Under the pieces are notes generated by a model. It was given only the letters and a program-made list of their open reading frames with translations, did not search any database and was not told where the DNA came from. A DNA stretch of 64,000 nt, taken from contig NZ_JANLCN010000003.1 in assembly GCF_024979255.1 (NCBI RefSeq), positions 310,001-374,000 of the forward strand, in the 5' to 3' direction. Of this stretch, positions 9,615 to 37,629 are shown in pieces (position 1 is the stretch's first letter; each line of letters begins with the position of its first letter). Source of the DNA: Herbiconiux moechotypicola (GTDB lineage: Bacteria; Actinomycetota; Actinomycetes; Actinomycetales; Microbacteriaceae). The position numbers and the translations under genes were made by a program.

Positions 9615-9622
9615 GCGCACCT
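9615..9622 (+). promoter_or_regulatory. ICE leader box GCGCACCT, copy 1 (before the ardC-like gene)
   Basis: GCGCACCT ends 56 bases before the ATG at 9679. The downstream ribosome site is embedded in CCTCGCCGGGAGG, which can fold on itself. Confidence 0.5.
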
Positions 9623-9678
9623 CATGGTCGCAGCGGTCACCGGCACACGCCGTTGGCCTCGCCGGGAGGAGGGCAGCC

Positions 9679-10743
9679 ATGGCGACGGATGACGAGGCTC
9701 GCGCGGTGCGAGATGCGAAGCTGGACGAGCTTCACGAACGTCTGGCGGACGCGGTTGGGCGTCTCGCATCGGGTGATGACTGGCGGCGTGCGTTGGTGTT
9801 CGCGGCGCGGTTTCGGTCGAGGTCGTTTGGGAACACGCTGCTGATCTGGTCGCAGCACCTGGATGCGTTCGAGAAGGGGCGAGTGCCGGATCCAGAGCCG
9901 TCGTACGTCGCCGGCTACAAACAGTGGCAGTCGCTCGGCCGTCAGGTCGCGAAGGGTCAGCCAGGGTACATGATCTTCGCCCCGGTGACGGGTCGGTTCG
10001 CGTCTTCGACGCCGCAGGGTGCCGAGTCGTGGCGACGGCTCGGGAGGTTCGAGAAGCCCAAGCCTGGTGAGGCGGTGCGCTCCCGGATGATCTCCGCCTG
10101 CCCCGCCTATGTCTGGGATGTCTCGCAGACCACCGGCGACCCGATCCCTGAGCGTCCGACGCCGCGGCTGCTGGAGGGCGAGGCACCCGCGGGGCTGTGG
10201 GATGGGCTGGCGGCGCTGGTAGAGGCGGACGGGTACCGAGTGCTGCGGGTGGAGCACGAGGGCATAATCGGCGGCGCGAACGGCCTGACCGACTACCGGG
10301 CGCGCACGGTCACGGTCAGGACGAACATGGACCCGGCCGCGCAGGTGAAGACGCTGGCGCACGAACTCGGCCATGTCCGCCTGCACGGCCCCGACAACCC
10401 GGATTGGCCGGGACATCGCGGGATCGGCGAGGTGGAGGCGGAGTCGGTGGCGTTGATGATCGGCGCCGCGCACGGCATGGACACCGCCTCCTATGCGATC
10501 CCGTACGTCTCTGGCTGGGCCGGCACGGTGACGGACAAGGACCCCGCCGAGGTGGTGCAGGCCACCGGCGAACGGGTGCGGAAAGCAGCCGGCGTGATCC
10601 TCGACGCTCTCGACACGGTGCAGCTCGGCGGCGGTGATCCGCCCGGCCTGACCCGCGAGACGCCGCCGCGCGTCGACCGGACACCGCCAGCCGCCATCGA
10701 ACCGATGCGTCCGGTGGCAGGTGTTGCGGCGAGGAGCCTCTGA
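9679..10743 (+). CDS. ArdC-like antirestriction protein (ssDNA-binding domain plus zincin)
   Basis: 354 residues. The N-terminal half (RSRSFGNTLLIWSQ, then YKQWQSLGRQVAKGQPGYMIF) is the ArdC ssDNA-binding domain. The second half is an ImmA/IrrE-type metallopeptidase domain with HELGH at residues 228-232 and the further acidic ligand in GEVEAES near 250. ArdC proteins coat incoming single strands and protect conjugated DNA from restriction. It is the first ICE backbone gene; the ATG follows GGGAGGAGGG. Its stop overlaps the next start (TGATG), implying coupled translation. In related elements a relaxase often stands upstream; none is seen here. Confidence 0.85.
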   Translation: MATDDEARAVRDAKLDELHERLADAVGRLASGDDWRRALVFAARFRSRSFGNTLLIWSQHLDAFEKGRVPDPEPSYVAGYKQWQSLGRQVAKGQPGYMIFAPVTGRFASSTPQGAESWRRLGRFEKPKPGEAVRSRMISACPAYVWDVSQTTGDPIPERPTPRLLEGEAPAGLWDGLAALVEADGYRVLRVEHEGIIGGANGLTDYRARTVTVRTNMDPAAQVKTLAHELGHVRLHGPDNPDWPGHRGIGEVEAESVALMIGAAHGMDTASYAIPYVSGWAGTVTDKDPAEVVQATGERVRKAAGVILDALDTVQLGGGDPPGLTRETPPRVDRTPPAAIEPMRPVAGVAARSL

Positions 10744-11648: not shown

Positions 11649-12322
11649 TGCCCGAGGTGGGGTCGCGGGGCGGGCGGCTGGCGGTGGTGACGGCGGTCGC
11701 GGGGACGGTGCTGATCGCGGCCGGCGCGTTCTGGCTCTCGTTCACCGCCCTGGCTGATCTCGCCCATCGCTCAGGGGTCGCGGCGGATCAGGCATGGGCG
11801 TGGCCGGTGATCGTGGATGGTCTGATCGTCGTCGCGACGGTCGCGGTCGTTGCTCTCGCGGGGCAGCGCGCGGCGTGGTACCCGTGGGTGCTGCTGGCCG
11901 GTGGTGCGCTGATCTCGGTCACCGCGAACGCCCTGCACGCGATCGTCGCCGCCGACGCCGACGTGCCCGCCGTCCTCGCCGCATCCGTCGCCGCCGTGCC
12001 GCCGCTGGTGCTACTCGCCTCCACGCACCTCACCGTCGTGCTCGTCCGATCACGCACCGCCGAGCCCGCCCCCGCAACCGAGCCTGCTGCGGATGTTCTG
12101 TCGGGGCTCGAGCCTCCCCCGCCGCCACCGGCCGATACGTCAGCGTCGGTGCCGGTGCGGGTCGGGCGGCGGTTGGTGGCGGTGCGGTTGCGGGAGGAGG
12201 GGTGGTCGAACAAGGCGATCGCCCGGCACCTCCAGGTGGCGCCATCGACGGTGGGCCGCTGGTTCGCGGCAGCGCCGGTCGCACCTGATGTGCAGGAGAG
12301 CCCGAAGGAGCTGACCGTATGA
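11648..12322 (+). CDS. DUF2637 membrane protein with C-terminal helix-turn-helix
   Basis: 224 residues. Four membrane helices (about 10-32, 48-70, 76-96, 100-122) match DUF2637, a family found in actinobacterial conjugative elements and related to Spd plasmid-spread proteins. After a Pro-rich linker (EPPPPPPADT) comes a helix-turn-helix, VAVRLREEGWSNKAIARHLQVAPSTVGRWF. The join of a membrane domain and a DNA-binding motif suggests it tethers DNA or reads membrane state. It overlaps its neighbours by one and four bases. Confidence 0.75.
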   Translation: MPEVGSRGGRLAVVTAVAGTVLIAAGAFWLSFTALADLAHRSGVAADQAWAWPVIVDGLIVVATVAVVALAGQRAAWYPWVLLAGGALISVTANALHAIVAADADVPAVLAASVAAVPPLVLLASTHLTVVLVRSRTAEPAPATEPAADVLSGLEPPPPPPADTSASVPVRVGRRLVAVRLREEGWSNKAIARHLQVAPSTVGRWFAAAPVAPDVQESPKELTV

Positions 12323-12798: not shown

Positions 12799-12822
12799 GC
12801 GCACCTCCTGGTCAGGAGGTGC
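12799..12822 (+). promoter_or_regulatory. ICE leader box, copy 2, inside a perfect hairpin that hides the ribosome site
   Basis: GCACCTCCTG (12801-12810) and CAGGAGGTGC (12813-12822) form a perfect 10-bp stem with a two-base gap. The right arm contains the AGGAGGT ribosome site for the ATG at 12827. The left arm includes the box GCGCACCT (12799-12806). Confidence 0.6.
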
Positions 12823-12826: not shown

Positions 12827-13690
12827 ATGCCCACAACAAGGACCCGCCCGGTGCGGGATCGTTTCGAGGACTCGGAAGCGCTGCGCGCCCTGCTGAACCG
12901 ACTGCACAACGCCGGCCGCGGCGCGTGGCGCACCGACCCGGACGCGGCAGCGCTGATGCGGCACGCGGCGCAGAAGTACGCGGCGCTAGCGAAGAAACAC
13001 AGCCTCGACCCGTGGGAAGCCGCATCGGCGGCCTTCGAAGCGATGCGAGGCGCCGCCACACGTCGAGCGGATGACCCGTGGGCGGTGGTGACCCGAGCAG
13101 TAAAGGTCACCTGCATCGGCGAGGAACGCGGCAACGGGCTGCTCTGCTCCGTGCACCAAGCCCGCCGCCCCCGCTACTCGGTCTTCCACGACGCGGAACG
13201 GTTCAGCGACCGCGAGAACCCGCTGACCGACTACCACCCCGCCTTCCATATCGCCCCCTTCACCGACACCGACGTCGACAAGGCAGATGCGGATGGGCCG
13301 GGGCAGATGGTGGATGTGGGTTCGGCGGTGGAGGACACGATCGCGTTGCTCGGCCTGCTCCGCTGGCGGCCGGAGACGGCGCGCGCCGCGGTGGAATATG
13401 TGACGGCCCGCCTCGCGCTGGCGCCATCGCGGGCGTCGGCGTTCGAGGTGCTGCGCCGGGACCGGCAAGCCCGCGCCCTCCTCGATCTGCCCGCCGCATC
13501 CTGGAGGGGGCTGCTGCGGGTCGTTCTCGGTGCCCCCGACCCGCAGCTCGCGCACACGAACGCGGGCCGTGGGGTGCTGCTGCGGCTGCTGATCGGCGAA
13601 CCGCTGCGGGCGCTCCTAGCAGACGATGATCTCGTGCTGGCTGCGAGCGTCGCGGCCCCTGGGCTCGATCCGGGACCGGAGGGGCGATGA
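12827..13690 (+). CDS. ICE protein of unknown function (conserved-looking, soluble)
   Basis: 287 residues from the ATG after AGGAGGT; an earlier in-frame start would place the hairpin inside the coding region. The protein is soluble and mostly helical (FEDSEALRALLNRLHNAGRGAW, WEAASAAFEAMR), with a central segment HPAFHIAPFTDTDVDKADAD. No recognised domain. Its stop overlaps the ParB-like start by four bases, so it belongs to the replication/partition block. The hairpin on its ribosome site suggests translation is controlled. Confidence 0.65.
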   Translation: MPTTRTRPVRDRFEDSEALRALLNRLHNAGRGAWRTDPDAAALMRHAAQKYAALAKKHSLDPWEAASAAFEAMRGAATRRADDPWAVVTRAVKVTCIGEERGNGLLCSVHQARRPRYSVFHDAERFSDRENPLTDYHPAFHIAPFTDTDVDKADADGPGQMVDVGSAVEDTIALLGLLRWRPETARAAVEYVTARLALAPSRASAFEVLRRDRQARALLDLPAASWRGLLRVVLGAPDPQLAHTNAGRGVLLRLLIGEPLRALLADDDLVLAASVAAPGLDPGPEGR

Positions 13691-14760
13691 GCGCGCCGTC
13701 CGGGCATATCGAGCTGGAGCGCACCGTCGAATCCATCGTCGTCGGGCTCCGGCACCGCCACGACCTCGGGGACCTTTCCCCCCTGGTGGAATCGATCCGC
13801 CGCAGCGGGCTCTTGCAGCCGATCACCGTCACCCCAACCGGGCATCTGATCTGCGGCGCCCGACGTCTGGCCGCGCTCCGGATCCTCGGCATCAGGACCG
13901 TAAACGTGTGGGTCCGCAGTGGCATCTCGGACCGGCTCGGACAACTCCTGGCGGAGCAGGACGACAACCTCCTCCACAAGCCCCTGACCCAGCTGGAGGC
14001 CGCCGGCCTGTACCGGGAGCTCAAGGCTCTGCTGGCAGAAGACGCCGCCCGCCGCCAGGAAGCCACCCGGTTCCGCACCGCCGACGACGCCTGGGAGGAC
14101 GGTGGTGGCAAGTTGCCACCACCGCAGTCCGCGCACGGCAAGTCCCGCTCGCAGGCGGCGATCATGGTGACCGGCCGGGACTCGCACAAGTCGCTGGAAC
14201 GTATCGGCAGGATCGAACACCTCGCCGCCGACGAGTCCCAACCGGAGGCGGTGCGCCGCCAGGCGGCCGAGGAGCTCGCACGCCTCCAAGCCGGCGGGAG
14301 CGTGCACCCTTCGCACCTGCGCGTGAACACGGAACTGTCCCTCGCCGAGCTTGACCGCCTCGCCACCGACCCGACCCAACCCGAGGAAGTGCGCGGGCAG
14401 GCTCGCGCGGAGGCCGCGGCGATCCGGGATGCCGAGCGGGTCGCGAAGGCCGCGGAGCTGGACGCACTGGCGACGGCCGCGCTCGCCCGCGTGAAGGCAG
14501 CGAAGACCACCGCCCGTAAAGGCAAGCGACAGGTGTTGACGGCGGTCGAGACGGGTGCACCGGTGCCGTTCCCGCTGAGCGTGTTCACGGCCACCTGGGA
14601 CGACATGGCCTCCTGGTGGACCCACTACGACCCCACCGTGATCGGCACTGCGCTCACCGATGAGCAATGGACCCGGTTCGAGCAGACCCTCGCCGGCACG
14701 ATCGCGTTCGCCGACGCCGCCCGCACGGTCAGGCAGACCCGGGGCGAACGAACCGCCTGA
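13687..14760 (+). CDS. ParB-like nuclease/partition-domain protein
   Basis: 357 residues. The first 110 hold a ParB N-terminal domain (ERTVESIVVGLRHRHDLGDLSPLVESIRRSGLLQPITVTP, ending ICGARRLAALRILG, the CTP/phosphate-binding GxRR-type motif). A helix-turn-helix-like middle and a long charged helical region (about 180-290) follow. It may partition the excised circular form or act in nicking or regulation. The unusual PPPQSAHGKSRSQAAIM segment is a flexible linker. No ParA partner is seen in the window. Confidence 0.78.
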   Translation: MSAPSGHIELERTVESIVVGLRHRHDLGDLSPLVESIRRSGLLQPITVTPTGHLICGARRLAALRILGIRTVNVWVRSGISDRLGQLLAEQDDNLLHKPLTQLEAAGLYRELKALLAEDAARRQEATRFRTADDAWEDGGGKLPPPQSAHGKSRSQAAIMVTGRDSHKSLERIGRIEHLAADESQPEAVRRQAAEELARLQAGGSVHPSHLRVNTELSLAELDRLATDPTQPEEVRGQARAEAAAIRDAERVAKAAELDALATAALARVKAAKTTARKGKRQVLTAVETGAPVPFPLSVFTATWDDMASWWTHYDPTVIGTALTDEQWTRFEQTLAGTIAFADAARTVRQTRGERTA

Positions 14761-14776: not shown

Positions 14777-14784
14777 GCGCACCT
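14777..14784 (+). promoter_or_regulatory. ICE leader box GCGCACCT, copy 3
   Basis: It lies just after the ParB stop, 47 bases before the ATG at 14832. CCTTCCCAG overlapping the box can pair with CTGGAAGG, which holds the downstream ribosome site, with one bulged base. Confidence 0.5.
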
Positions 14785-15532: not shown

Positions 15533-16708
15533 GTGATGCGGAAGCTGGGCGTCCTGCTCGTCGCGCTGCTGTTCTTCGCCCCCTCGACTGTGCTCATCGG
15601 CGTCGCCACGCTCCTGAACCCCGCAGCGACCGCGACCTGCCTGCCCGGGTCGCTGCTGGTCGGCCCGATCCCCGACTCGCTGACCGCCACCACTCGCGAC
15701 GGGGCCACGGTGACGCTGAACCGCACCCAGCTCAACCATGCCGCCACGATCATCACCACGGGTTCGCAGACCACCGGCGTCGGCCGGCCAGGAGTGGTCA
15801 TCGCGCTCATGGCCGCGCTCACCGAATCGAGCCTGCGGATGCTCGCCAACACCGGCGCGTATCCCGAGTCGGCGGACTACCCCAACGACGGCAACGGCTC
15901 AGATCACGACAGCCTCGGGCTGTTCCAGATGCGACCGCAGTCCGGGTGGGGCACGGTCGCGGAACTCATGGACGCGAGCTACCAGGCCCGCGCGTTCTAC
16001 GGTGGGCCAACCGGCCCGAACTACCCCTCGCCGCGCGGCCTGCTGGACATCCCCGGCTGGCAGAGCCTCGACCCGGGCGAGGCCGCCCAGGCGGTCGAGG
16101 TGAGCGCGTACCCGGACAGGTATCAGAACTACCAGCCGGTCGCTGAGGCGATCGTGACCGCCCTCACCCGGCCCGCGGGCTCAGGAGGTGGCAGCGGCGC
16201 AACACCGGTCGTACCCGAGACCACCCGGCTGGTGTTCCCCCTGCCCGAGGGGACCTGGGTGCGCACCAGCGGGTTCGGGTGGCGTGAGGACCCGATGACC
16301 GGGGAACGAGCGTTCCACGCGGGCTCCGACTTCGCCGCCGCGGACGGCACCCCGATCCTCGCCGTCGCCGACGGCCTCGTCGTACATGCGGAGTACACGG
16401 GCAACTACGGCGGCCTGGTCATCATCGAGCACACCGTGAACGGGGAACGAGTCGCGTCGTACTACGCCCATATGTGGGAGACCGGCATCCATGTCACCGA
16501 AGGGCAGACGGTCACTGCCGGGCAGCACATCGGCGATGTCGGCTCCTCCGGGAAGTCCACCGGCCCGCACCTGCACCTGGAGATCCACCCCGGCGGACAA
16601 GGGCACGACCCCGTCGACGCGGACGCCTGGCTCACCGACCACGCCGCAGAAGGCGTCACCGCGGGCGACACGACCCTCACCACCTGCACCGCAGGCGGGA
16701 GCGCCTGA
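15533..16708 (+). CDS. VirB1-like cell-wall hydrolase (lysozyme-like plus M23 peptidase)
   Basis: 391 residues. A signal peptide or anchor (about 4-28) is followed by a lytic-transglycosylase-like domain (IALMAALTESSLRML with the catalytic Glu, then DSLGLFQMRP) and a C-terminal M23/LytM domain with Zn ligands in HAGSDF (about 262) and HLHLEI (about 346). A Gly/Ser linker (SGGGSGA) joins them. It opens the peptidoglycan for the conjugation channel, acting outside the membrane. The start is GTG directly followed by ATG. Its stop overlaps the next gene by one base. Confidence 0.87.
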   Translation: MMRKLGVLLVALLFFAPSTVLIGVATLLNPAATATCLPGSLLVGPIPDSLTATTRDGATVTLNRTQLNHAATIITTGSQTTGVGRPGVVIALMAALTESSLRMLANTGAYPESADYPNDGNGSDHDSLGLFQMRPQSGWGTVAELMDASYQARAFYGGPTGPNYPSPRGLLDIPGWQSLDPGEAAQAVEVSAYPDRYQNYQPVAEAIVTALTRPAGSGGGSGATPVVPETTRLVFPLPEGTWVRTSGFGWREDPMTGERAFHAGSDFAAADGTPILAVADGLVVHAEYTGNYGGLVIIEHTVNGERVASYYAHMWETGIHVTEGQTVTAGQHIGDVGSSGKSTGPHLHLEIHPGGQGHDPVDADAWLTDHAAEGVTAGDTTLTTCTAGGSA

Positions 16709-16974
16709 TGGACGTGTTCCCCGACTTCGACGGCGTCGGCGCAACCGGCGAACTGCAGTCCATCGTCGGCGCGCTGCTGATGTTCGTGCTCATCATCGCC
16801 GTCCTCATGCTCATCATCTGCGCCATCGTCTGGGCTGTTGCGTCATCGTCCGGCAACCATCAGGCGGCTACCAAGGCCCGCACCGGCCTGTGGGTGTCGG
16901 TCGGCGCCGCCGCGCTCGCCGGCGCCGGGGTCGCGTGGATGAACTTCCTCCTCGACCTCGGCACCCAGCTCTGA
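16708..16974 (+). CDS. Small two-helix membrane protein, pilin-like (DUF6112 type), copy 1
   Basis: 88 residues with two hydrophobic helices (about 22-46 and 61-82) separated by a short basic loop (SGNHQAATKARTG). Size and topology match VirB2/TrbC-like subunits, and the family I recall at this position is DUF6112. It is paralogous to the gene at 17054: both share a GAL/V..V..II..V..LII.AIVW helix followed by a basic loop. It may form the extracellular or channel-lining component of the secretion system. Confidence 0.7.
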   Translation: MDVFPDFDGVGATGELQSIVGALLMFVLIIAVLMLIICAIVWAVASSSGNHQAATKARTGLWVSVGAAALAGAGVAWMNFLLDLGTQL

Positions 16975-17005
16975 CCGGCCCCGCCGGCCGAGCGGGACAG
17001 ACGGG

Positions 17006-17013
17006 GCGCACCT
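17006..17013 (+). promoter_or_regulatory. ICE leader box GCGCACCT, copy 4
   Basis: It extends to GGGGCGCACCTGACCG. CCTGAC can pair with GTCAAGG, the ribosome site of the GTG at 17054, with one bulged A. Confidence 0.5.
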
Positions 17014-17053
17014 GACCGTCGAGAACTCGTCTCGTCACCGTCAAGGAGCAATC

Positions 17054-17323
17054 GTGATCGACATCGACCCCAACTCGTCCGGCCTTCCCGGCATCGAGCA
17101 ACTGCGCATCATCGTCGGGGCCGTCATGACGGTCGGGCTCATCCTCAGCGTCCTGGCGCTGATCATCAGCGCGATCGTGTGGGGCTTCGGCGCCAATAGC
17201 TCCAACCCCCACCTCGCCTCACGCGGCAAGGTCGGCGTCCTCGTGTCCTGCGGGGCGGCGATCATCTGCGGTGCCGCGGTCACGCTCATCAACTTCTTCT
17301 GGGGCGTCGGGCAAGCGGTATGA
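17054..17323 (+). CDS. Small two-helix membrane protein, pilin-like (DUF6112 type), copy 2
   Basis: 89 residues, GTG start after AAGGAG. Two hydrophobic helices (about 20-46 and 60-84) with a basic loop (SNPHLASRGK), and clear resemblance to the 16708 protein, so this is a tandem duplication. Having two diverged copies suggests two different subunits, for example a major and a minor pilin-like protein, rather than redundancy. A leader box separates the pair, so each is translated independently. Confidence 0.7.
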   Translation: MIDIDPNSSGLPGIEQLRIIVGAVMTVGLILSVLALIISAIVWGFGANSSNPHLASRGKVGVLVSCGAAIICGAAVTLINFFWGVGQAV

Positions 17324-20259: not shown

Positions 20260-20267
20260 GCGCACCT
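20260..20267 (+). promoter_or_regulatory. ICE leader box GCGCACCT, copy 5
   Basis: Five bases after the SCO6880 stop and 40 before the ATG at 20308; extends to CCGGGCGCACCTGACGG. GGTGAGGAG, the ribosome site, can pair partly with CCTGAC. Confidence 0.5.
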
Positions 20268-22586: not shown

Positions 22587-22600
22587 GTTCACGATTCCTG
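22581..22600. repeat. Left border repeat of the metal island
   Basis: 20 bases starting CCGTAAGTTCACG match 30800-30819 at 17 of 20 positions and include the VirB4 stop codon. GTAAGTTC (22583-22590) also forms an inverted repeat with GAACTTAC (22617-22624). A third relative of the GTTCACGA..CCTGAA part lies at 30977-30992. Confidence 0.55.
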
Positions 22601-22640
22601 AAGCCGGTTGAGGCGGGAACTTACGAGTCGATGGGTCGAT

Positions 22641-23696: not shown

Positions 23697-24059
23697 ATGC
23701 TGACTCTTGTTTCGCGGGTGGACGTGATGAACCGGCTGGGCCGGGCGATGGCCGACCCGACCCGCTCCCGCATCCTCCTGTCGCTGCTCGATGCGCCGGG
23801 GTATCCGGCGAAGCTCGCCCGCAACCTGGACCTGACCCGCACGAACGTCTCCAATCACCTTTCGTGTCTGCGAGGCTGCGGGATCGTGGTCGCCGAGCCG
23901 GAGGGCCGGCAGACCCGGTACGAGATCGCCGACCCGCACCTGACGGCCGCGCTCGTTGCCCTGGTGGATGTGACGCTCGCTGTCGACGAGAGCGCGCCAT
24001 GCCTGGACCCGGCCTGCACCGTCCCCGGCTGCTGCGACACCGAGGCCACGGCCGGATGA
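23697..24059 (+). CDS. cmtR: CmtR-type ArsR/SmtB metalloregulator (Cd/Pb sensor)
   Basis: 120 residues. The winged helix includes LARNLDLTRTNVSNHLSCLRGCG. All three metal-binding cysteines known from Mycobacterium tuberculosis CmtR are at the same numbers: Cys57 and Cys61 in LSCLRGC and Cys102 in APCLDP. That points to Cd(II)/Pb(II)-responsive derepression. The tail has three more cysteines (CTVPGCC) that could modify specificity. The start MLTLVSRVDV matches the CmtR N-terminus. It is coupled (ATGA) to the CDF transporter and divergent from the ACR3-like pump. Confidence 0.88.
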   Translation: MLTLVSRVDVMNRLGRAMADPTRSRILLSLLDAPGYPAKLARNLDLTRTNVSNHLSCLRGCGIVVAEPEGRQTRYEIADPHLTAALVALVDVTLAVDESAPCLDPACTVPGCCDTEATAG

Positions 24060-24724: not shown

Positions 24725-25032
24725 CCCACATCGGCCCGCTCAACAGCCTGCCGATCGCCTGCACCCTCACCCCCGCGGCGGGTAAGGCACAGCTAGAGAA
24801 GTGGCAGGCGTTCGACGAGCACTACGCGCTGGAGACCGAGCGCACGGACAGCCGTCTGACTATCCATTACGCGAAGGTGGATGACTCCACTCGACGGTTG
24901 CGGGAGCTGGTCGCGACCGAGAGCACATGCTGCGCCTTCGTGGACTGGAGCATCGACGAGTCACACGCCGACCTTCGGCTCGTCGTCACCGGGACGCCGG
25001 AGCAGCTTTCCGCGCTCAACGTCGGCTCCTAG
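24721..25032 (+). CDS. Small cysteine-containing protein of the metal operon
   Basis: 103 residues, coupled (ATGA) to the CDF gene. The pattern LRELVATESTCCAFVDWSI, then DLRLVVTGTPEQL, resembles small proteins found beside mercury and heavy-metal genes, in which the CC pair probably binds metal. A further cysteine (PIACTLT) lies near the start. A cytoplasmic metal-binding or sensing helper is plausible; no enzyme motif is present. Its end overlaps the convergent flavoprotein gene by four bases. Confidence 0.65.
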   Translation: MTHIGPLNSLPIACTLTPAAGKAQLEKWQAFDEHYALETERTDSRLTIHYAKVDDSTRRLRELVATESTCCAFVDWSIDESHADLRLVVTGTPEQLSALNVGS

Positions 25033-26411
25033 ACCAGCACTTTCGCGTTCGCGGCCGACCACGCTTGCGCCGCGACCTGGACGGCGTCCCACGGGGAGCC
25101 GAGGGGTGGGGTGTAGGAGAGGTCGAGGTCGTCGAACTGCTCGATGGTGAGTCCGGCGTAGAGGGCGGTGGCGTAGGTGTCCACGCGTTTTGCGACCTCG
25201 GTGCCGCGCCTGCCGACCAGTTGTGCGCCGAGCAGTCGCCCGTCGCTGGTGTCGCCGGTGATGCGGAAGTGGATCGGGTGGGCGCCCGGGTAGTACCGCT
25301 TGTGGTCATCCGCGGCGGCAGCGACTGTTGCGGGCGTGAAGCCGGCGGTGATCGCCTCGTGGTCGCGCAGGCCGGTGCGGGCGGCGACGAGGTCGAAGAC
25401 CTTGACGACCTGGGTGCCGACGGAGCCGGCGAAGGCCCGGTCGCTGCCGAGGGCGTTCTCCCCGGCGATGCGGCCCTGCTTGTGGCTCGTGGTGCCCAGC
25501 GGCAGGTAGGTGACCCCGAGGAGGCGGTGGTGGGTGACGATGCCGTCGCCGGCGGCCCAGACGTGCGGGAGCCCGGTTCGCATGTGCTCGTCGACCACGA
25601 CCGCGCGGCCCGCGCCGAGGGACGCGCCGGCCTGCTCGAGCAGCTCGGTGTTCGGGCGCACCCCGACGACGACGAGCACGAGGTCCGCGGTCTGCTCGAA
25701 CGGCTGCCCGTCGCGGCTGCCGTTGACGGTGAGCCCGGCGGGGGTCTTCTCGATCCCGGTGACGGTCGTGTTCGTGACGACCTCGACGCCGTGGGTGGTG
25801 AGTTCGTCGTGGACGAGGGCGCCGAGTTCGGGGTCGAGGGTGGAGAGCACTTCGGGACCGCGCTGAAGCTGGGTGACGGTCATGCCTCGGGTGATGAAGG
25901 CTTCGGCCATCTCCAGGCCGACGTAGCCGGCGCCGACGATGATCGCCGACTGCGGCTGCCGGGTGGTGAGGTCGTGGTCGAGGGCGAACGTGTCGCCCAT
26001 CGAGTGGATGACATGCGCCCCGTCCTCCGGGGACAGGGCTTCGAGGCCGGCGATGCCGGCGTGGGACGGGAGTGCGCCGGTGCCGACGATCAGCTCGTCG
26101 TAGGCCAGATCCTCGAAGGCGCCGTCGGGGGTGCGGACGGTGAGCCGGCGACCTGCGACGTCGATGCCGGTGGCGAAGGTGTTCAGCCGCAGTCGCATGC
26201 CGGTGGCCTCCAGATCGGCGCTGGTGCGGTGCGCGAGCGACTGCCACGGGGCGACCTCGCCGGTGAAGTAGTACGGGATGCCGCAGATGGAGAAGTTCGG
26301 ATACTCGTCCGCCACCACCACCGTCACGTCGGTGCTGGGGTCGAGTTCGCGGGCGCGAAGCGCTGCAGAGATGCCGGCGTCGGAGCCGCCGATGGCAATC
26401 AGGTGGGTCAT
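25029..26411 (-). CDS. FAD-dependent pyridine nucleotide-disulfide oxidoreductase (CoA-disulfide reductase/NADH oxidase-like)
   Basis: 460 residues. FAD-binding start IAIGGSDAGISAALRA (the usual GGxAxG has become GGSDAG), active cysteine Cys43 in SICGIPYYF, NAD(P)-binding IIVGAGYVGLEMAEAF, second FAD motif VWAAGDG and a C-terminal dimerisation domain. Relatives reduce CoA or other thiol disulfides, or polysulfide, with NAD(P)H. In arsenic clusters such an enzyme may supply reduced thiols for arsenate reduction. Its start overlaps the aquaporin stop by four bases; both are divergent from the arsR-arsC fusion gene. Confidence 0.85.
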   Translation of the reverse strand: MTHLIAIGGSDAGISAALRARELDPSTDVTVVVADEYPNFSICGIPYYFTGEVAPWQSLAHRTSADLEATGMRLRLNTFATGIDVAGRRLTVRTPDGAFEDLAYDELIVGTGALPSHAGIAGLEALSPEDGAHVIHSMGDTFALDHDLTTRQPQSAIIVGAGYVGLEMAEAFITRGMTVTQLQRGPEVLSTLDPELGALVHDELTTHGVEVVTNTTVTGIEKTPAGLTVNGSRDGQPFEQTADLVLVVVGVRPNTELLEQAGASLGAGRAVVVDEHMRTGLPHVWAAGDGIVTHHRLLGVTYLPLGTTSHKQGRIAGENALGSDRAFAGSVGTQVVKVFDLVAARTGLRDHEAITAGFTPATVAAAADDHKRYYPGAHPIHFRITGDTSDGRLLGAQLVGRRGTEVAKRVDTYATALYAGLTIEQFDDLDLSYTPPLGSPWDAVQVAAQAWSAANAKVLV

Positions 26412-27100
26412 GGCTGGGCCTTTCGGTTCGGGAACAGCAAGAGGACCAGCCCGACGCCCACAGCGGCGCCGACGAGTTGAGCGGCGAGGAACCACAGCGC
26501 GGACGTCGGGGCGATGCCGGCGAAGGTGTCGGTGAAGATCCGGCCGATGGTCACGGCGAGGTTGGCGAACGATGTGGACGACGTGAACCAATAGGCGGCG
26601 CCGATGTAGGCACCGACCGCGGGAGCGACCACGGCGCTGCGGCCGGTGCGGGCCAGGGCGAAGATCAGCACCACCAACCCGGCGGTGGCGACGACCTCGC
26701 CGAGCAGATTCCCGGCCGAGAGCCGGTCGGTCGTAGCCAGGACGGTGGGCGTCTGGAACATCAGGTTCGCCAGGACTGCGCCGCCGATCCCGCCGGCGAG
26801 CTGCGCGGCGAGGTAGACCACGATCTCTGCCGGAGCGTGGCGGGTGCCGAGGAGGCGGTCGGCGAGGGTGACGACGGGGTTGAGATGCGCGCCGCTGACG
26901 GGCTGGAAGATCACGATGAGCACCGTCAGCCCGAGCGCCGTCGCCAGCGAGTTCTCCAGTAGCTGCAACCCGACATCTGCCGGCGAGAGGCGCTGCGCGG
27001 CGATGCCGGAGCCGACCACGACGGTCACCAGCAGACCGGCGCCGAGGAACTCCGCGACCGCGCGCCGCCACAACGGGACCGGGACGAATGTCGTGCTCAT
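26408..27100 (-). CDS. Aquaporin-family channel of the arsenic operon, altered second NPA box
   Basis: 230 residues with six helices and two half-helices. The first box is NPV (GAHLNPVVT), the second is NLA (TSFANLAVTIGR), where most relatives have NPA. Arsenic-linked aquaporins such as AqpS of Sinorhizobium let As(III) produced by ArsC flow out down its gradient. The start follows AAGGTGAT. It begins 48 bases from the divergent ArsR-phosphatase fusion, with a shared operator between them. Confidence 0.82.
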   Translation of the reverse strand: MSTTFVPVPLWRRAVAEFLGAGLLVTVVVGSGIAAQRLSPADVGLQLLENSLATALGLTVLIVIFQPVSGAHLNPVVTLADRLLGTRHAPAEIVVYLAAQLAGGIGGAVLANLMFQTPTVLATTDRLSAGNLLGEVVATAGLVVLIFALARTGRSAVVAPAVGAYIGAAYWFTSSTSFANLAVTIGRIFTDTFAGIAPTSALWFLAAQLVGAAVGVGLVLLLFPNRKAQP

Positions 27101-27124
27101 GTGCGGATCACCTTGACGACGATA

Positions 27125-27151
27125 CATTGCTCAGTCACTATTGAGGTAATG
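27125..27151. promoter_or_regulatory. Probable operator between aquaporin and arsR-arsC fusion genes
   Basis: Nested imperfect inverted repeat: CATT (27125-27128) and CTCA (27130-27133) mirrored by TGAG (27142-27145) and AATG (27148-27151). It covers the start region of the fusion gene in a short divergent interval. Confidence 0.45.
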
Positions 27152-27826
27152 AACATTGAGCGAACTGACCTGGCGGGGCGGGTGGCGCGGTACGCGGCCC
27201 TCGCCGATCCGGCGCGGCTGCGGATCATGGACCTGCTCACGCTGGGCGATGTCGCCCCGGTCGAGCTGCAAGCCGAGCTCGGGGTCTCCTCAAGCCTGCT
27301 CGCGCACCACCTGAACCAGCTCGAACAGGCAGGGCTGCTGCTGCGCACCCGGTCGGAAGCAGATCGGCGCCGCACCTACCTGCACCTCGCTCCCGATGCC
27401 TTCGCGGGGCTGACCCCGTCGCCGGCCCTCGGCGTGCGGCGGGTGGTGTTCGTCTGCACCGGCAACTCCGCACGCTCGCAACTCGCCGCCGCGCTCTGGC
27501 ACGACGCCAGCGACGTCCCGGTGGCCTCGGCGGGCACGCACCCGGCGGACGCGATCGAGCCCGGCGCGATCGCCGCCGCGAACCGGCACGGCCTCACCCT
27601 CCGCGCTCCCCGCCCGCAGGCGCTGGAAGACGTGGTCGAAGCGGACGACTTCGTGGTCACCGTCTGCGACACCGCCCACGAGGAACTCGACGGCGCGGGC
27701 CGGGTGCATTGGTCGGTGCCCGACCCGGTGCGTGACGGATCGGATGCCGCGTTCGATGCCGCCTTCGAGGACATCGCCGCCCGTATCCACAACCTCGCCC
27801 CGCGGCTGACCACAACGAAGGGATGA
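27149..27826 (+). CDS. ArsR repressor fused to a low-molecular-weight phosphatase/ArsC-like domain
   Basis: 225 residues. Residues 1-85 are an ArsR winged helix (LADPARLRIMDLLT, ELGVSSSLLAHHLNQLEQAG). Residues 95-220 are an LMW-phosphatase-type arsenate reductase domain with P-loop VCTGNSARSQ (CX5R) and the closing VHWSVPDPVRDG acid motif. The DNA-binding half has no cysteine, so it cannot bind As(III) in the usual ArsR way; sensing may pass through the reductase domain, whose cysteines are in VCTGN and TVCDTAHEE. The stop overlaps the next arsC by four bases. Confidence 0.87.
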   Translation: MNIERTDLAGRVARYAALADPARLRIMDLLTLGDVAPVELQAELGVSSSLLAHHLNQLEQAGLLLRTRSEADRRRTYLHLAPDAFAGLTPSPALGVRRVVFVCTGNSARSQLAAALWHDASDVPVASAGTHPADAIEPGAIAAANRHGLTLRAPRPQALEDVVEADDFVVTVCDTAHEELDGAGRVHWSVPDPVRDGSDAAFDAAFEDIAARIHNLAPRLTTTKG

Positions 27827-28488
27827 CTACGATGTCGCACCAGGAACCGCATGCCACGATCACCATCGACCAGGAGGCCGCCCTCGCCTCCGGCGCGGAG
27901 CGGCTGACCCGGGAGTTCGACGGCACGTTCGGACGGGAGACGATCGACCGCTTCCTGCACACCTCCTACGCCGACCTCGCCGCCCGAGCGACCGTGCCGA
28001 ACTATCTGCCGCTGCTGACCGAGAAGTTCGCCAGGCAACGCCTGCACGCCCTCGCCAAGGTCGACGGCCTCCACGTCGACGGGAAGCCGACGGTGCTGTT
28101 CCTATGCGTCCACAACGCCGGCCGATCGCAGATGGCCCTCGGGTTCTTTCAGCACCATGCGGGCGAGCACGCGGTCGGCTGGTCGGGCGGCTCCGAACCC
28201 GGCCACGAGGTCAGCCCGGTCGCCGTCGAGGTGATGGCCGAGCGCGGCATCGACATCGCCGACGAGTACCCGAAGCCGTGGACCGACGAGGTCGTGCGGG
28301 CCGCGGACGTGGTGATCACGATGGGCTGCGGCGACGCCTGCCCGGTGTTCCCCGGCAAACGCTACGAGGAATGGTCCCTCCCCGACCCCGCCGGATGGAC
28401 CCCCGAAGGCGTCCGGCCGGTGCGCGACGAGATCGAGGCTCGCGTCCTGAACCTGCTCGCCGAGCTCGGCGTCCCCGCGAGAACCTAG
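27823..28488 (+). CDS. arsC: Arsenate reductase, actinobacterial mycothiol-type ArsC
   Basis: 221 residues. An N-terminal three-helix segment (about 20-80, TIDRFLHTSYADLAAR) precedes the LMW-phosphatase fold. The P-loop is CVHNAGRSQ with Cys95 and Arg101; then GSEPGHEVSPVAVEVM, the MGCGDACPVFPGKRYEEW segment and the acid LPDPAGW. This architecture matches Corynebacterium ArsC1/ArsC2, which use mycothiol and mycoredoxin to reduce arsenate. Product arsenite would leave through the ACR3-like pump or the aquaporin. Convergent overlap of three bases with the flavoprotein gene. Confidence 0.87.
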   Translation: MTTMSHQEPHATITIDQEAALASGAERLTREFDGTFGRETIDRFLHTSYADLAARATVPNYLPLLTEKFARQRLHALAKVDGLHVDGKPTVLFLCVHNAGRSQMALGFFQHHAGEHAVGWSGGSEPGHEVSPVAVEVMAERGIDIADEYPKPWTDEVVRAADVVITMGCGDACPVFPGKRYEEWSLPDPAGWTPEGVRPVRDEIEARVLNLLAELGVPART

Positions 28489-29813
28489 ACCGCAGTACCC
28501 GCGGGGGCGCGGCCGAGCTGGATCACCTGCAGCACTCCTGATGCGCAGCAGGCACCGCCCTTGGCCCCGGTCGGGTCATCGAACAGGCCGGCCCCGCCGC
28601 ACACGCCCGTGTCCGGCAACGCCAGCTCGACCCGTTGTGCAGCCTCGTGGTCTCCGGCAAGTTCGGCGACCACGCTGCGGACCTGCTCGTAGCCGGTCAG
28701 GGCGAGGAAAGTCGGGGCGCGGCCGTAGGACTTCGCCCCCACGATAAACAGGCCCGGCTCCGGCTGGGCCAGGTCGGCGGCTCCAGTGGCGCGCACCGAC
28801 CCGCAGGAGTGGATGTTGGGGTCGATGTCGGCGGCGATCCGCGCCGGCGCCTGCAGCCGGGCATCCAGCTCCAGCCGCACCTCGGACAGGATCGACAGAT
28901 TCGGTCGGAACCCGGTGAGCACCACGACCCGATCGGCGGGCTCGAGCGTCCGGCCGTCCTCGGCGACCAGGACCGCTCCCTGCTCCGCGGTGTCGATCCG
29001 CTCGATCCGGAACCCGGTCACCATGCTCACAAGACCCTGCTCGACCGCGGCGCGGGCGCGCTGGCCGAGTGCGCCGCGCTCGGGAAGCTCGTCAGCCTCC
29101 CCGCCGCCGAACGTGCCGCCAATCGTCCCGCGCCGCAGCACCCAGGCGATCCGAGTGTCGGGATGCTGACGGGCGATCCGGGCCAGCTCGGTGATCGCGG
29201 TCGCTGCGGAGTGCCCATTGCCGACCACAACCGTGTGCCGCCCCGCATACAGCTCGGCGTCGGCGAACGACGGAATCCGGTACGTCAGGAGCCCGGCCGC
29301 AGCCCCCTCGCCGAGCGCAGGCAACCCGTCGGCGCCAGCCGGGTTCGGTGTGGTCCAGGTGCCCGAGGCATCGATGACCGCCTGCGCCTCGATCCGCGAC
29401 TGCGTGCCATCCGCCTCCTCGACGTGAACGACGAACGGCTGCTCGGCACGCCCGGCATCCACCAGCAAGTCGCGTCCCTTGCGGCCGACGCCGGTGACCT
29501 TCGCGCCGTAACGGACGCGATCTCCAAGAACCTGCGCGAGAGGCGCGAGGTATCCGGTGATCCAGGCGCCGCCGGTCGGATACCCCCGCTCGGGTCGCTG
29601 CCACCCGGAGGGCTCCAGTAGCCGAGCCGCGGCGGGGTCGACGAGCTCGGGCCACTCGGAGAACAGCCGCACATGCCCCCACTCCGACACCGCCGCCGCA
29701 GGACCCGCCCCCTGCTCCAGCACCAGCGGCGTGAGGCCCCGCTCCAGCAGACGCGCTGCCGCTGCCAGCCCCTGCGGCCCTGCGCCGATCACCACGACAG
29801 GAAGACCCACCAT
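28485..29813 (-). CDS. ArsO-like FAD/NAD(P)-dependent monooxygenase
   Basis: 442 residues. FAD motif VVIGAGPQGLAAAARL, a central VIDASGTWTTPNPAG, NAD(P) motif HTVVVGNGHSAATAI, then VVVLTGFRPNLS. Related flavoproteins (ArsO) occur in Streptomyces arsenic clusters; their reaction is not settled. The last 30 residues are odd for the family: CGGAGLFDDPTGAKGGACC has three cysteines and could bind arsenic or metal. The ribosome site GAGGAG supports the start. It is divergent from arsR across a 75-base region with repeats. Confidence 0.8.
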   Translation of the reverse strand: MVGLPVVVIGAGPQGLAAAARLLERGLTPLVLEQGAGPAAAVSEWGHVRLFSEWPELVDPAAARLLEPSGWQRPERGYPTGGAWITGYLAPLAQVLGDRVRYGAKVTGVGRKGRDLLVDAGRAEQPFVVHVEEADGTQSRIEAQAVIDASGTWTTPNPAGADGLPALGEGAAAGLLTYRIPSFADAELYAGRHTVVVGNGHSAATAITELARIARQHPDTRIAWVLRRGTIGGTFGGGEADELPERGALGQRARAAVEQGLVSMVTGFRIERIDTAEQGAVLVAEDGRTLEPADRVVVLTGFRPNLSILSEVRLELDARLQAPARIAADIDPNIHSCGSVRATGAADLAQPEPGLFIVGAKSYGRAPTFLALTGYEQVRSVVAELAGDHEAAQRVELALPDTGVCGGAGLFDDPTGAKGGACCASGVLQVIQLGRAPAGTAV

Positions 29814-29822
29814 CCACTCCTC

Positions 29823-29865
29823 ACATCGACTAACCTCAATACATCGAGAATCCTCGATACATCGA
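29823..29865. promoter_or_regulatory. arsO-arsR operator: three ACATCGA repeats at 18-base spacing plus a palindrome
   Basis: ACATCGA begins at 29823, 29841 and 29859, exactly 18 bases apart, so all three lie on nearly the same face of the helix over two turns each. ATCGAG (29843-29848) and CTCGAT (29853-29858) form a perfect inverted repeat around AATC. Confidence 0.6.
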
Positions 29866-29888
29866 CAGATGTCAATGCGACTGGCAGG

Positions 29889-30248
29889 ATGGGAACCGTG
29901 ACCATCGCACTCCCGCTTCTCGCCCGAGGCGACGCCGCCTGTTGCGGCACGGTCGCCGGCGGCGTGCTCGACTCTGAGCAGGCGGAGCGGATCGCCCGCG
30001 TCTTCAAGGCCCTCGGCGACCCCACCCGGGTCAAGCTCCTCTCCCTGATCGGCGGCAGCGAGACCGGCGAGATGTGCATCTGCGACCTCACCGACCCCGT
30101 GGGCCTGTCCCAGCCGACCGTCTCGCACCACATGAAGCAGCTCGTCGACGCTGGCCTCGCCACCCGCGAGCAGCGCGGCAAGTGGGCCTACTTCCGCGTC
30201 GTCGACGGCGCGCTCGAGAACGCCGCCCGGACCCTCCTGCCCGAATGA
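29889..30248 (+). CDS. arsR: ArsR-family arsenite-responsive repressor
   Basis: 119 residues. A winged helix with the As(III) site in GEMCICDLTD (CxC in the recognition-helix region, as in plasmid R773 ArsR ELCVCDL) and helix-turn-helix LSQPTVSHHMKQLVDAGL. An extra CC pair near the start (DAACCGTV) could give a third ligand, as in actinobacterial ArsR types. It overlaps the acetyltransferase by four bases and faces the ArsO-like gene, so it probably controls both directions. Confidence 0.88.
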   Translation: MGTVTIALPLLARGDAACCGTVAGGVLDSEQAERIARVFKALGDPTRVKLLSLIGGSETGEMCICDLTDPVGLSQPTVSHHMKQLVDAGLATREQRGKWAYFRVVDGALENAARTLLPE

Positions 30249-30805
30249 TCCGCGTCGTCATCCGTCCGATGACGCCTGCGGACTGGCCCGCCGTCGAGCA
30301 CATCTACCGCGAAGGCATCACCACCGGGCACGCCACCTTCGAGGCAGAACCGCCCGCCTGGGATGGCTTCGACAAGAGCAAGCTCCCCGGTCCGCGCCTC
30401 GTCGCCACTGACACCGACGGCGTCGTCGTGGGGTGGGCGGCAGCCAGCGCCGTGTCATCGCGGCCGGTGTACCGTGGGATGGTCGAGCACTCGATCTACA
30501 TCGCCGACGCCGCACGTGGTCAAGGCGCCGGGGGCGCCCTTCTGGAAGCGTTCATCGCTGCCGCGGACACCGCGGGCATCTGGACCATCCAGTCGTCGAT
30601 CTTCCCGGAGAACACGGCGAGTCTCCGCCTGCACGAGCGCTACGGGTTCCGCACCGTGGGCATCCGCGAACGTATCGCGCTGATGGGTTACGGGCCGCTG
30701 GCTGGCGCTTGGCGAGATACCGTGCTGATCGAGCGTCGTCGCCCGCACCAACACATGACGCCTTACATGCGAGCGCGACTGAGTCAGCTCGACATGAACC
30801 CGTGA
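30245..30805 (+). CDS. GNAT acetyltransferase, ArsN/phosphinothricin-acetyltransferase-like
   Basis: 186 residues coupled to arsR (ATGA). GNAT core: VRPMTPADWPAVEHIYREGI, acetyl-CoA loop RGQGAGGALLEAFI, then FPENTASLRLHERYGFRTVG and WRDTVLIERR, matching phosphinothricin N-acetyltransferases. The ars-linked member ArsN1 acetylates the antibiotic arsinothricin. Position right after arsR supports that role, but phosphinothricin or methionine-sulfone acetylation is also possible. Its stop codon lies in the right border repeat of the island. Confidence 0.78.
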   Translation: MIRVVIRPMTPADWPAVEHIYREGITTGHATFEAEPPAWDGFDKSKLPGPRLVATDTDGVVVGWAAASAVSSRPVYRGMVEHSIYIADAARGQGAGGALLEAFIAAADTAGIWTIQSSIFPENTASLRLHERYGFRTVGIRERIALMGYGPLAGAWRDTVLIERRRPHQHMTPYMRARLSQLDMNP

Positions 30806-30819: not shown

Positions 30820-31092
30820 CACACCCATCAGGACTCCTGCGAAACCTTCGGGAATCTCGACATTCCATCACGCTGACCGACAAGCGCCGCCATACACGGC
30901 GCACCTAGAGAGCACGGAACAACGCGCGACTCGCGTCGGTAACGAACTCACGGCAGTTGGGACACAAGCCCCACAGGTTCACGAAACCTGAACCCCTGCC
31001 CGCTTCGCACTCGCTCCGGCGGGTAAGGCCGGGTGCACCTGCTGGCTGGACGGCTCTCTCGTCGTCCGTTCACCGAGCCAGGAGGACAGCAC
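30806..31092 (+). promoter_or_regulatory. Gene-free leader of the surface-protein gene with two ICE boxes
   Basis: 287 bases without a gene. It holds the island border, GCGCACCT (30899-30906), GGTTCA/TGAACC as an inverted repeat within 30976-30994, the variant box GTGCACCT (31033-31040), and CTGGCT that can pair with AGCCAG next to the AGGAGG ribosome site (31079-31086). Confidence 0.5.
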
Positions 31093-34193: not shown

Positions 34194-34201
34194 GCGCACC
34201 T
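34194..34201 (+). promoter_or_regulatory. ICE leader box GCGCACCT, copy 8 (before dprA)
   Basis: Extends to GCGGGCGCACCTG. CCTGTTCGG can pair with CCGGCAGG, which contains the ribosome site of the ATG at 34229. Confidence 0.5.
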
Positions 34202-35194: not shown

Positions 35195-35204
35195 GGAGCC
35201 AGCG

Positions 35205-35212
35205 GCGCACCT
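35205..35212 (+). promoter_or_regulatory. ICE leader box GCGCACCT, copy 9
   Basis: Ten bases after the DprA stop and 63 before the ATG at 35276; AGCGGCGCACCTGCCGG. ACTCC downstream of it can pair with GGAGT in the GGGAG ribosome site. Confidence 0.45.
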
Positions 35213-35275
35213 GCCGGTCATGACCACTCCGCTGCCCCTCACCCACCCAAGCCCAGAACCACGGGAGTCCGCCTG

Positions 35276-35830
35276 ATGCCGCGGCCCCGTTACCGGCGAA
35301 ACATCGGCGTCCCTGAGCAGGTGGAGGTTCCCGTGGTGCTGCCGCTGGTGATCATGACCGTCGCCGATGACGACACGATGAACGCAGTCGTCGACGGCGT
35401 CCCGTATCTCCCGGCCGCGTTCGCACCGCCGTGGCGGCGGGACTCGTTCGCGATGATCCTCGACCAGCTGACGGCCCGGCACCGAACCCCGCTGCGAGTA
35501 GAGGTCCGCGAGGCCGACGGCACCGTGTTCACCGACATCATCACCCCCGCACGAACCCGCACCCTGCTTCCAGCGCAGACGCCCGATCCAGAACCCGCCG
35601 CCGACCCGCCACCGGTTCCTGCCGCAGGCGTTCTGGTCGGGTTGGTCGAGTCAGGGTTCGTGCCCGGCGAGGACATCGCCGTCGCTGTCGTAATCGGTCA
35701 CTCCGACGCCGCCCCGGACGGCACCGCTCGAGGCCTCCTCACCAGAACGCAGCTGGCCGCAAGCCCGACGAGGGAGGTGATCCTGCTGGGCAGGGTCTCC
35801 GGGACCCTCACGATCGGGCACCCGGAATGA
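35276..35830 (+). CDS. ICE protein of unknown function upstream of the coupling protein
   Basis: 184 residues with no membrane helix. Two small beta-rich segments (VVLPLVIMTVADDDTMNAVVDG and GVLVGLVESGFVPGEDIAVAVVIGH) are joined by a Pro-rich linker (AQTPDPEPAADPPPVPAAG). No catalytic pattern is visible. The stop overlaps the TraG start by four bases, so the two are made together, and it could be an adaptor for the coupling protein; that is positional inference. Confidence 0.6.
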   Translation: MPRPRYRRNIGVPEQVEVPVVLPLVIMTVADDDTMNAVVDGVPYLPAAFAPPWRRDSFAMILDQLTARHRTPLRVEVREADGTVFTDIITPARTRTLLPAQTPDPEPAADPPPVPAAGVLVGLVESGFVPGEDIAVAVVIGHSDAAPDGTARGLLTRTQLAASPTREVILLGRVSGTLTIGHPE

Positions 35831-37629
35831 GCACCCCACGGCCCTCCGGATCGCTCGGAGACGAACTGTCGAACCTCGGAATCGGCGTCCTGATCAGCGC
35901 GGCGATCCTCGCCTGCATCCTGCGGGCAGCGGGATCTGCCGCCGCTTGGGTCGCCGGCATCCCGCAGCCCACCGGCGGCATCGAGACTGGGCTGGGCGTG
36001 CTGCTGACCCCCGCAGACCCGGCAACCGCGCTCCACGCACCCGGCCTGCACCCCGTCGTCTACTGGATCACTGCGGGACTGCTCCTCGTCGGAGCCGGAA
36101 CGGCGGGATGGTGGGTGTGGCGGGCACTTCGCGACCACACCCGGCAGACGAACATGGATCCGTACCGGATCGCCGGGATCGCCACCCGGGCCGATGTTGC
36201 ACGGCATGCCTCCACCGCAGCGCTGCTGCGCCGCGCACGGCACCTGCGCCCCTCCCTGTCCTCGCCCGGGCCCGGGCCCGGGGATGTCGGCTACCGGATC
36301 GGCACCTCCCGCGGGCGTGAGGTGTGGGCGTCGGTCGAAGACAGCATCCTGCTGATCGGGCCGCCCCGGTCGGGGAAGGGCGCGCACATCGTCATCAACA
36401 CGATCCTCGACGCGCCCGGCGCAGTCATCACCACCAGCACCAGGCCCGACAACCTCACCGCCACCCTTCATGCCCGGGGGCGCATCGGGCCGGTGGCTGT
36501 GTTCGACCCGCAGCACCTCGCCGACGGCATCCCCGCCGGGCTCCGCTGGTCGCCGATCCGCGGGTGCGAGGACCCGCTGACCGCGATGATCCGCGCCACC
36601 GGTCTCGCCGCCGGCACCGGCCTCTCCGCAGGTGGTGTCGAAGGGGGTGGGTTCTGGGAAGGCAAGACCCGCACCGCACTCCAAGCCCTCCTCCACGCCG
36701 CAGCCCTCGACCACCGGCCACCCGCCGAGCTGTTCCGGTGGACCCTCGACCCATCTGCCGCCGCCGACGCCGTCGCGATCCTCACCACCCATCCTGGTGC
36801 CGCGACCGGATGGTCCGACTCGCTCCAGGCGATGATCGAATCCGATCCGAGAACCCGTGACTCCATCTGGCAGGGCGTGTCCCTCGCCCTAGCCGCCCTC
36901 GCAGACCCGCGCGTCCTCGACGCCGTGACCCCCGGTGAGGGTGAGGACTTCGACCCGGAAGCGTTCCTCCATGCGAAAGGAACCCTCTACCTCCTCGCCA
37001 CCGGAGCCGGAGCGAACAACTCCGCCTCCCTGGTAGCCGCGTTCGTGGAAGACCTCGTTGAAGCAGCCCGGCGCCTCGCCGCCCGCAGTCCCGGTGCACG
37101 CCTGGACCCACCCGTGCTCCTCGCCCTCGACGAAGTCGGCAACCTCGCGCCACTGCCCTCACTGCCGACGTTGATGGCCGAAGGCGGCGGCACCGGCATC
37201 ACCACCATGCCCGTGCTGCAATCCCTCGCCCAAGCACGCGAGAAATGGTCGGAGAACGCCGCCTCCGCGATCTGGGACGCCTCGATCGTCAAGATCGTCC
37301 TCGGCGGAGCTTCCAACAGCCGCGACCTCCACGACCTCACTACCCTCATCGGAGAACGAGACGAGATCACAGACTCCACCACCATCGGCGACCACGGCAC
37401 CCGCTCCGCGCAGCGCTCCATCCGCCGCGTCCCGATCATGCCGCCCGACACCATCCGCACCCTCCCATTCGGCACCGCACTCGTACTCCTACGCTCCTCG
37501 CCACCCATCGTCACCCGCATGCGCACCTGGACCACCCGACCCGACGCAAAACACCTGCGCGCAGACCGCGCCGACATCGAGGCGATGCTGCGGCGTCCCC
37601 CGATGGGGAGCACGGGCGCACCTGACTGA
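35827..37629 (+). CDS. VirD4/TraG-type coupling ATPase
   Basis: 600 residues. Two N-terminal membrane helices (about 18-45 and 77-99), Walker A GPPRSGKG (178-185), Walker B PPVLLALDEVGNLAPLPSLP, and the TraG-type GGTGITTMPVLQSLAQAREKW segment. It brings the DNA-protein substrate to the secretion channel. The end of its reading frame contains leader box copy 10, so the signal for the next gene is embedded in coding DNA. No relaxase was found for it to bind. Confidence 0.88.
   Translation: MSTPRPSGSLGDELSNLGIGVLISAAILACILRAAGSAAAWVAGIPQPTGGIETGLGVLLTPADPATALHAPGLHPVVYWITAGLLLVGAGTAGWWVWRALRDHTRQTNMDPYRIAGIATRADVARHASTAALLRRARHLRPSLSSPGPGPGDVGYRIGTSRGREVWASVEDSILLIGPPRSGKGAHIVINTILDAPGAVITTSTRPDNLTATLHARGRIGPVAVFDPQHLADGIPAGLRWSPIRGCEDPLTAMIRATGLAAGTGLSAGGVEGGGFWEGKTRTALQALLHAAALDHRPPAELFRWTLDPSAAADAVAILTTHPGAATGWSDSLQAMIESDPRTRDSIWQGVSLALAALADPRVLDAVTPGEGEDFDPEAFLHAKGTLYLLATGAGANNSASLVAAFVEDLVEAARRLAARSPGARLDPPVLLALDEVGNLAPLPSLPTLMAEGGGTGITTMPVLQSLAQAREKWSENAASAIWDASIVKIVLGGASNSRDLHDLTTLIGERDEITDSTTIGDHGTRSAQRSIRRVPIMPPDTIRTLPFGTALVLLRSSPPIVTRMRTWTTRPDAKHLRADRADIEAMLRRPPMGSTGAPD
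37616..37623 (+). promoter_or_regulatory. ICE leader box GCGCACCT, copy 10 (before ssb)
   Basis: CGGGCGCACCTGACTGAGG; GCGCACCTGACTG is identical to 13 bases of tRNA-Pro (complement of 40366-40378). CCTG can pair with CAGG of the AGGAGGA ribosome site before 37677. Confidence 0.55.

Follow-up and report, generated by a model that had tools for sequence, protein, structure and literature searches.

SigN (ZpdN), encoded on plasmid pBS32 of Bacillus subtilis, is an experimentally proven sigma factor of a mobile element, with a weak resemblance to the extracytoplasmic function (ECF) sigma factors, that activates itself and a set of element promoters (PMC6751061). The promoters in its table are AT-rich, it is tied to cell death after DNA damage, and, in the portion of that report considered here, the authors state that they found no SigN promoters in the chromosome (PMC6751061). 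In the start-associated sequences (SAS) and extended start-associated sequences (ESAS) of the cluster K mycobacteriophages, the SAS consensus GGGATAGGAGCCC can pair with the 16S rRNA near the start codon, as far as the sections covered describe it (PMC3203893, PMC12699233). The parts of the literature covered by our search (including PMC3203893, PMC12699233, PMC6751061, PMC3218068 and PMC6540685) contain no description of the motif analyzed below, and no account of how transfer is turned on in integrative and conjugative elements (ICEs) that have a secretion system of this type. Here, we analyzed 64,000 nucleotides of Herbiconiux moechotypicola, at 310001-374000 of their contig (hereafter the window), which carry such an ICE. 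An earlier note on this DNA had described an octamer, GCGCACCT, as element-wide punctuation before uncoupled genes, i.e., those whose start does not touch the preceding stop, and this description is borne out. With a probability of about 0.75, an ICE family would share a promoter of which this box is the chief recognition element, and the element's own sigma factor, encoded at 12827, would read it at ten promoters in the window, with masking of ribosome sites partly supported.

The repeated box and its relation to start codons

The nine copies of GCGCACCT in the earlier note, and the variant GTGCACCT at 31033, were all found where it had placed them. The octamer is enriched, as it had claimed: the window contains 16 copies on both strands for 4.0 expected from dinucleotide shuffles, and none of 100 shuffles reached 16. 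Thirteen of these copies are on the plus strand, and the ones that the earlier note lacked are at 6405, 37521, 42235 and 54609 (plus strand) and at 3505, 40378 and 56052 (minus strand). Its extended form, the loose 13-mer GGGCGCACCTGAC, was not enriched when up to three mismatches were allowed (50 found vs 59 expected). Hence, the motif is better described with flanks at fixed spacing. Among 229 rows, picked for one of eight spellings of the box and cleared of similar rows, conservation extends from approximately -14 to +26 around the box, whose bases are numbered 0 to 7. The motif consists of a G-run around -10 to -8 (G in 91% of the rows at -10 and in 60% at -9), GYGCACCT at 0-7, and a pyrimidine-purine (Y-R) step at 14 and 15, with a pyrimidine in 91% and a purine in 99% of the rows, respectively. 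There is also a G at 12 in 67% of the rows, and few T occur after position 15. These rows therefore present what is expected of a promoter, an oriented motif at a fixed distance from a Y-R start step. A search for internal base-pair covariation in 233 rows was not convincing for any pair: paired cells exceeded expectation by 0.11 at most, at -5/20.

Nine of the ten sites of the earlier note score 18.5-26.4 bits with a weight matrix made from rows of related loci, the window being left out. The tenth, the copy of GCGCACCT at 30899..30906 (plus strand), fits the motif poorly (7.3 bits) and was excluded. We added a site absent from the earlier note, TCGCACCT at 12279 (15.3 bits), which precedes the gene at 12319. 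The final set comprises ten sites with 15.3-26.4 bits, of which all ten have a purine at 15 and nine a pyrimidine at 14:

9604..9630, plus strand, predicted promoter of ardC; box 9615-9622, predicted transcription start 9630, 19.2 bits
12268..12294, plus strand, probable promoter of the 12319 gene; TCGCACCT at 12279-12286, in the end of the preceding frame, 15.3 bits
12788..12814, plus strand, predicted promoter for the gene of the candidate sigma factor; box 12799-12806, transcription predicted to begin at 12814, the A of AGGAGG, 26.4 bits
14766..14792, plus strand, predicted promoter of the 14832 gene; box 14777-14784, 18.5 bits; some orthologues leaderless
16995..17021, plus strand, predicted promoter of the DUF6112 gene 17054; box 17006-17013, 23.4 bits
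20249..20275, plus strand, predicted promoter of the 20308 gene; box 20260-20267, 21.3 bits
31022..31048, plus strand, predicted promoter of the 31093 gene; box GTGCACCT at 31033-31040, 20.5 bits
34183..34209, plus strand, predicted promoter of the DprA-like gene 34229; box 34194-34201, 23.1 bits
35194..35220, plus strand, predicted promoter shared by 35276 and the traG frame 35827 that overlaps it; box 35205-35212, 21.0 bits
37605..37631, plus strand, predicted promoter of the SSB-like gene 37677; box 37616-37623, in the end of traG, 21.4 bits

The copy at 6405-6412 (plus strand) is borderline (12.5 bits) and lies 24 bases upstream of an ATG within a reading frame for a CAAX protease. Judging by the rate on the reverse strand, chance alone should produce about one hit of this kind in DNA of the size of the window. 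On the minus strand, GCGCACCTGAC at 40371-40378 (10.4 bits) falls within the tRNA-Pro gene at the integrase end and has the appearance of a coincidence.

One scan with the 18795 product identified at least 80 relatives among 245 candidate loci; the 80 used here have 71-97% identity in the best segment and titles from Microbacterium, Leucobacter, Cryobacterium, Agromyces, Tessaracoccus and others, from which their actinobacterial origin was deduced. A contig titled Acidobacteria bacterium UBA2994 (L032) is also a relative of the ICE, with 95% identity in the 18795 product, and is probably mis-binned. In the 80 loci, 261 copies of GCGCACCT are oriented with the genes and 68 against them. In the orthologous upstream regions, collected by tblastn, the exact octamer and the octamer with at most one mismatch were found, respectively, in 27 and 37 of 37 regions for ardC, 27 and 42 of 52 for 12827, 10 and 45 of 51 for 14832, 18 and 64 of 70 for DUF6112, 25 and 38 of 58 for 20308, 3 and 6 of 6 for 31093, 6 and 15 of 20 for dprA, and 31 and 48 of 49 for 37677. 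The earlier note had named absence of the box before orthologues as a refutation. Instead, the exact octamer is present in 147/343 regions of these eight families vs 7/576 of eleven other families, most of them coupled, and the ratio is 295/343 vs 74/576 with one mismatch allowed (this comparison omits families 12319 and 35276, with 2/27 and 1/34 exact matches). Another refutation that it had named was an equal frequency in coding and chromosomal DNA. We searched the 4.28-Mb host genome with a 75-row model made from the relatives only, the window being held out, and scored 150 of 3613 first-look candidates. The six best of the 107 listed matches to the whole motif are all within the element. 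The box at 12799 is the best of them, and nine of the ten window sites are in the list, 12279 being the one that is not. The exact degenerate pattern is not specific to the element, with 24 forward and 28 reverse occurrences in the host genome, and the specificity thus resides in the summed motif. By sequence comparison, the repeated box is real, oriented and conserved across a family of actinobacterial ICEs.

We then placed the start codons relative to the box, using 286 orthologous starts (252 distinct leaders) whose choice favoured sites with a Shine-Dalgarno sequence. Five start codons are at position 15, without a Shine-Dalgarno, none are at 16-26 and 279 are at 27 or beyond; the remaining two, at 9, are false matches. 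Such starts, at +1 itself or past a leader of minimal length, are what a promoter would give. A looser mechanical scan, taking the first in-frame ATG or GTG at 345 sites, put 7 starts at 15, 19 at 10-13 and 14 at 21-26. We inspected the 24 at 10-13, 21 and 23, and most had a Shine-Dalgarno and a later start by eye, the start at L095:759 being unclear. An ATG occurs at 15 in six orthologues of 14832 (L072, L081, L094, L102, L108 and L109) and in two frames of 181 amino acids that are 35276-like by eye (L161 and L164), with two doubtful cases, L056 (in-frame starts upstream) and L160 (55 amino acids). We looked for an upstream in-frame ATG, GTG or TTG in L072, L094, L161 and L164 and found none. 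Position 15 thus behaves like a transcription start with respect to start codons. Counted from it, the box would span -15 to -8, with the G-run near -25. The fixed spacing without convincing covariation, the Y14 R15 step, and the ATG at 15 without a Shine-Dalgarno favour a core promoter. Among the three options of the earlier note, the regulator site comes nearest, and mRNA processing and a translational leader are disfavoured.

The 12827 product as a candidate sigma factor

Several observations are suggestive of the following product being the likely reader of the box:

12827..13690, plus strand, candidate sigma factor of 287 amino acids, preceded by its own promoter copy

The product is conserved (37-member alignment), and its predicted fold has two helical domains joined by a loose linker. 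Among the 21 top structural neighbours, 20 are sigma chains, as judged from entry title and chain length, and the predicted N-terminal domain aligns best to sigma region 2, a resemblance that is suggestive rather than conclusive. The gene is present in 58 of the 80 loci; the other 22 loci come from 21 genomes, 15 of which also have the gene. Of the 37 genomes of the same family that have DUF6112, 32 carry it, including G096 with only a 46-residue fragment. In a phylum sample, it is present in 6 of the 396 genomes, the genome analyzed here included. From the 34 positive genomes of that sample, we took 29 DUF6112 stretches, leaving out the window's own. A box above 12 bits is found in 4/5 stretches from genomes with the 12827 gene vs 2/24 from genomes without it (Fisher p 0.003). 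One locus (L144) has a 14.6-bit box near DUF6112, around 2742, where no 12827-type gene was found; it possibly has a more distant reader.

The box is kept in ten loci with distant homologues (L128-L130 and L160-L166, the duplicates L167 and L168 being left out), in a different form. Position 0 is free in these loci (C19 G12 A10 T11 of 52) vs G in 355/441 in the near family, and position 1 is C in 37/52 and T in 3/52 vs C in 289/441 and T in 118/441, the reverse-strand background being 9 and 95. A promoter that shifts with the 12827 subfamily is the pattern expected of a sigma-promoter pair.

The sigma assignment is tentative. Six genomes carry boxes without a 12827-type gene, and a match to the Sigma70_r2 profile is absent in all 37 members of the family. 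The product had no usable match in Pfam, NCBIfam, PHROGs or PDB sequences, and an hhalign comparison of the family with the region-2 sequences of the host sigma factors was negative. There is a single plasmid record with a match to 12827, and PLSDB's gene table, which is incomplete, has no gene at that place. The promoter may be as proposed and its specificity come from another protein of the element, e.g., a ParB-like activator (13687-14760), or from a host sigma factor. Any gene travelling with 12827 would give the same co-occurrence and the same shift, and the host genome has 11 Sigma70_r2 matches. However, the box sits at the place of the -10 element, which is contacted by sigma rather than by an activator, and the six best listed matches all fall within the element, which would not be expected of a host regulon. 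A resemblance to a sigma fold is also seen for the 12827 product, although it is the only product of the element that was folded. We consider this alternative unlikely.

If the 12827 product is the reader, an alternative sigma factor encoded by the element would steer the host RNA polymerase to the ten promoters and thereby activate, as one set, the genes for antirestriction, replication, transfer and coupling. Since its gene has its own copy of the promoter, there is probably positive feedback.

Possible masking in read-through RNA

Across 202 leaders, the openness of the Shine-Dalgarno is 0.28 when the box is part of the RNA and 0.53 when the RNA begins at position 15. It is 0.31 after swapping the 5' parts between genes. 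Hence, most of the masking stems from what all 5' parts share and a smaller part is gene-specific. On average, gene-specific masking was not seen for 20308 (0.35 vs 0.32) and 37677 (0.36 vs 0.35). In the window, masking is clear at 9615, 12799, 14777, 17006, 31033 and 35205, and absent at 12279, 20260, 34194 and 37616. This gives modest support to a secondary effect, a tendency of the box to hide the ribosome site: its CACCT may help to fold over the next Shine-Dalgarno in RNA read from upstream, so that several genes would need transcription from their own start to be expressed.

One might thus take the box for an RNA-level element, an anti-Shine-Dalgarno arm with a coupling or repressing effect on how the following gene is translated, as the lower openness in read-through RNA and hairpins such as the one at 12799 would suggest. 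Yet, the box is kept before genes without a Shine-Dalgarno, and neither the conserved G at -10 nor the 14-15 step has a convincing pairing partner within -25 to +25, which makes this explanation very improbable. Cutting of long mRNAs at position 15 by an endonuclease would likewise yield fixed 5' ends, leaderless messages and intergenic placement, but it requires a nuclease not yet known, with a long single-strand motif, and the Y-R step and the spacing are typical of promoters, so we give it very little credence.

Gene content and comparison with known systems

Genes in the window were assigned from codon composition, Pfam and NCBIfam, with start codons picked by eye:

9679, ArdC-like
10743, primase
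13687-14760, ParB-like, overlapping the 12827 gene
15536, M23 peptidase
16708 and 17054, DUF6112 frames
17364, SCO6881-like (below cut-off)
18795, SCO6880-like
21093, VirB4-like (below cut-offs)
31093, large protein without Pfam match
34229, DprA-like
35827, TraG
37677, SSB-like (weak)
38699, HTH_17 frame, probably the excisionase
38898, integrase adjoining tRNA-Pro

The two DUF6112 frames are in tandem (16708-17323), with the promoter before the second, and are several kilobases apart in some relatives. A metal/arsenic-type island with cation-efflux, ArsR and phosphatase-type frames lies between the VirB4-like gene and 31093 (22600-30805), and the weight matrix found no match above 9 bits in it.

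We see roughly even chances for a broader proposal, in which 12827 would found a sigma family missed by the libraries used and carried by actinobacterial ICEs of the SCO6880/DUF6112 type. Such a family would combine a GC-rich promoter, a sigma-54-like spacing, self-activation, leaderless or leadered messages, and an anti-Shine-Dalgarno role of the box that keeps read-through RNA muted, the element being silent until its own sigma factor is made. If true, this would add a sigma family that profile searches miss, and a dedicated sigma factor with a promoter readable from sequence would allow the regulon of every such element to be predicted and its switch to be tested directly. Matching on switches would also explain how the transfer genes could be activated jointly.

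In phage T4 late genes and in the fold-back inhibition of IS10, read-through RNA hides a ribosome site that RNA from the gene's own promoter leaves accessible. In the ICE, by difference, a single element would have such masking at several of its promoters, and the statistics behind this are modest. Sigma-54 promoters (-24/-12) have GG and GC twelve bases apart, with the start twelve bases further, which is the spacing of G -10, GC 2-3 and R15 of the box, although the ICE box extends to CACCT. The sigma-54 DNA-binding domain (PF04552) was not found in the host genome, and was found in 4 of 14 control genomes. Like SAS and ESAS, as these are described in the sections covered, the box is a short asymmetric repeat before many genes, nearly always in one orientation and conserved among related elements. 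It is further upstream than SAS, has another sequence and appears to mark the transcription start; we rejected its identity with SAS, GGGATAGGAGCCC near the start codon being replaced here by a different motif at a different position. The closest proven precedent found is SigN, which is also, in the part of its description covered, a sigma factor borne by an element and activating itself together with its own set of promoters. The ICE system differs from it in belonging to a family of elements of high-GC actinobacteria, in having a GC-rich box and a product without sequence match to sigma factors, and in being known so far from sequence alone.
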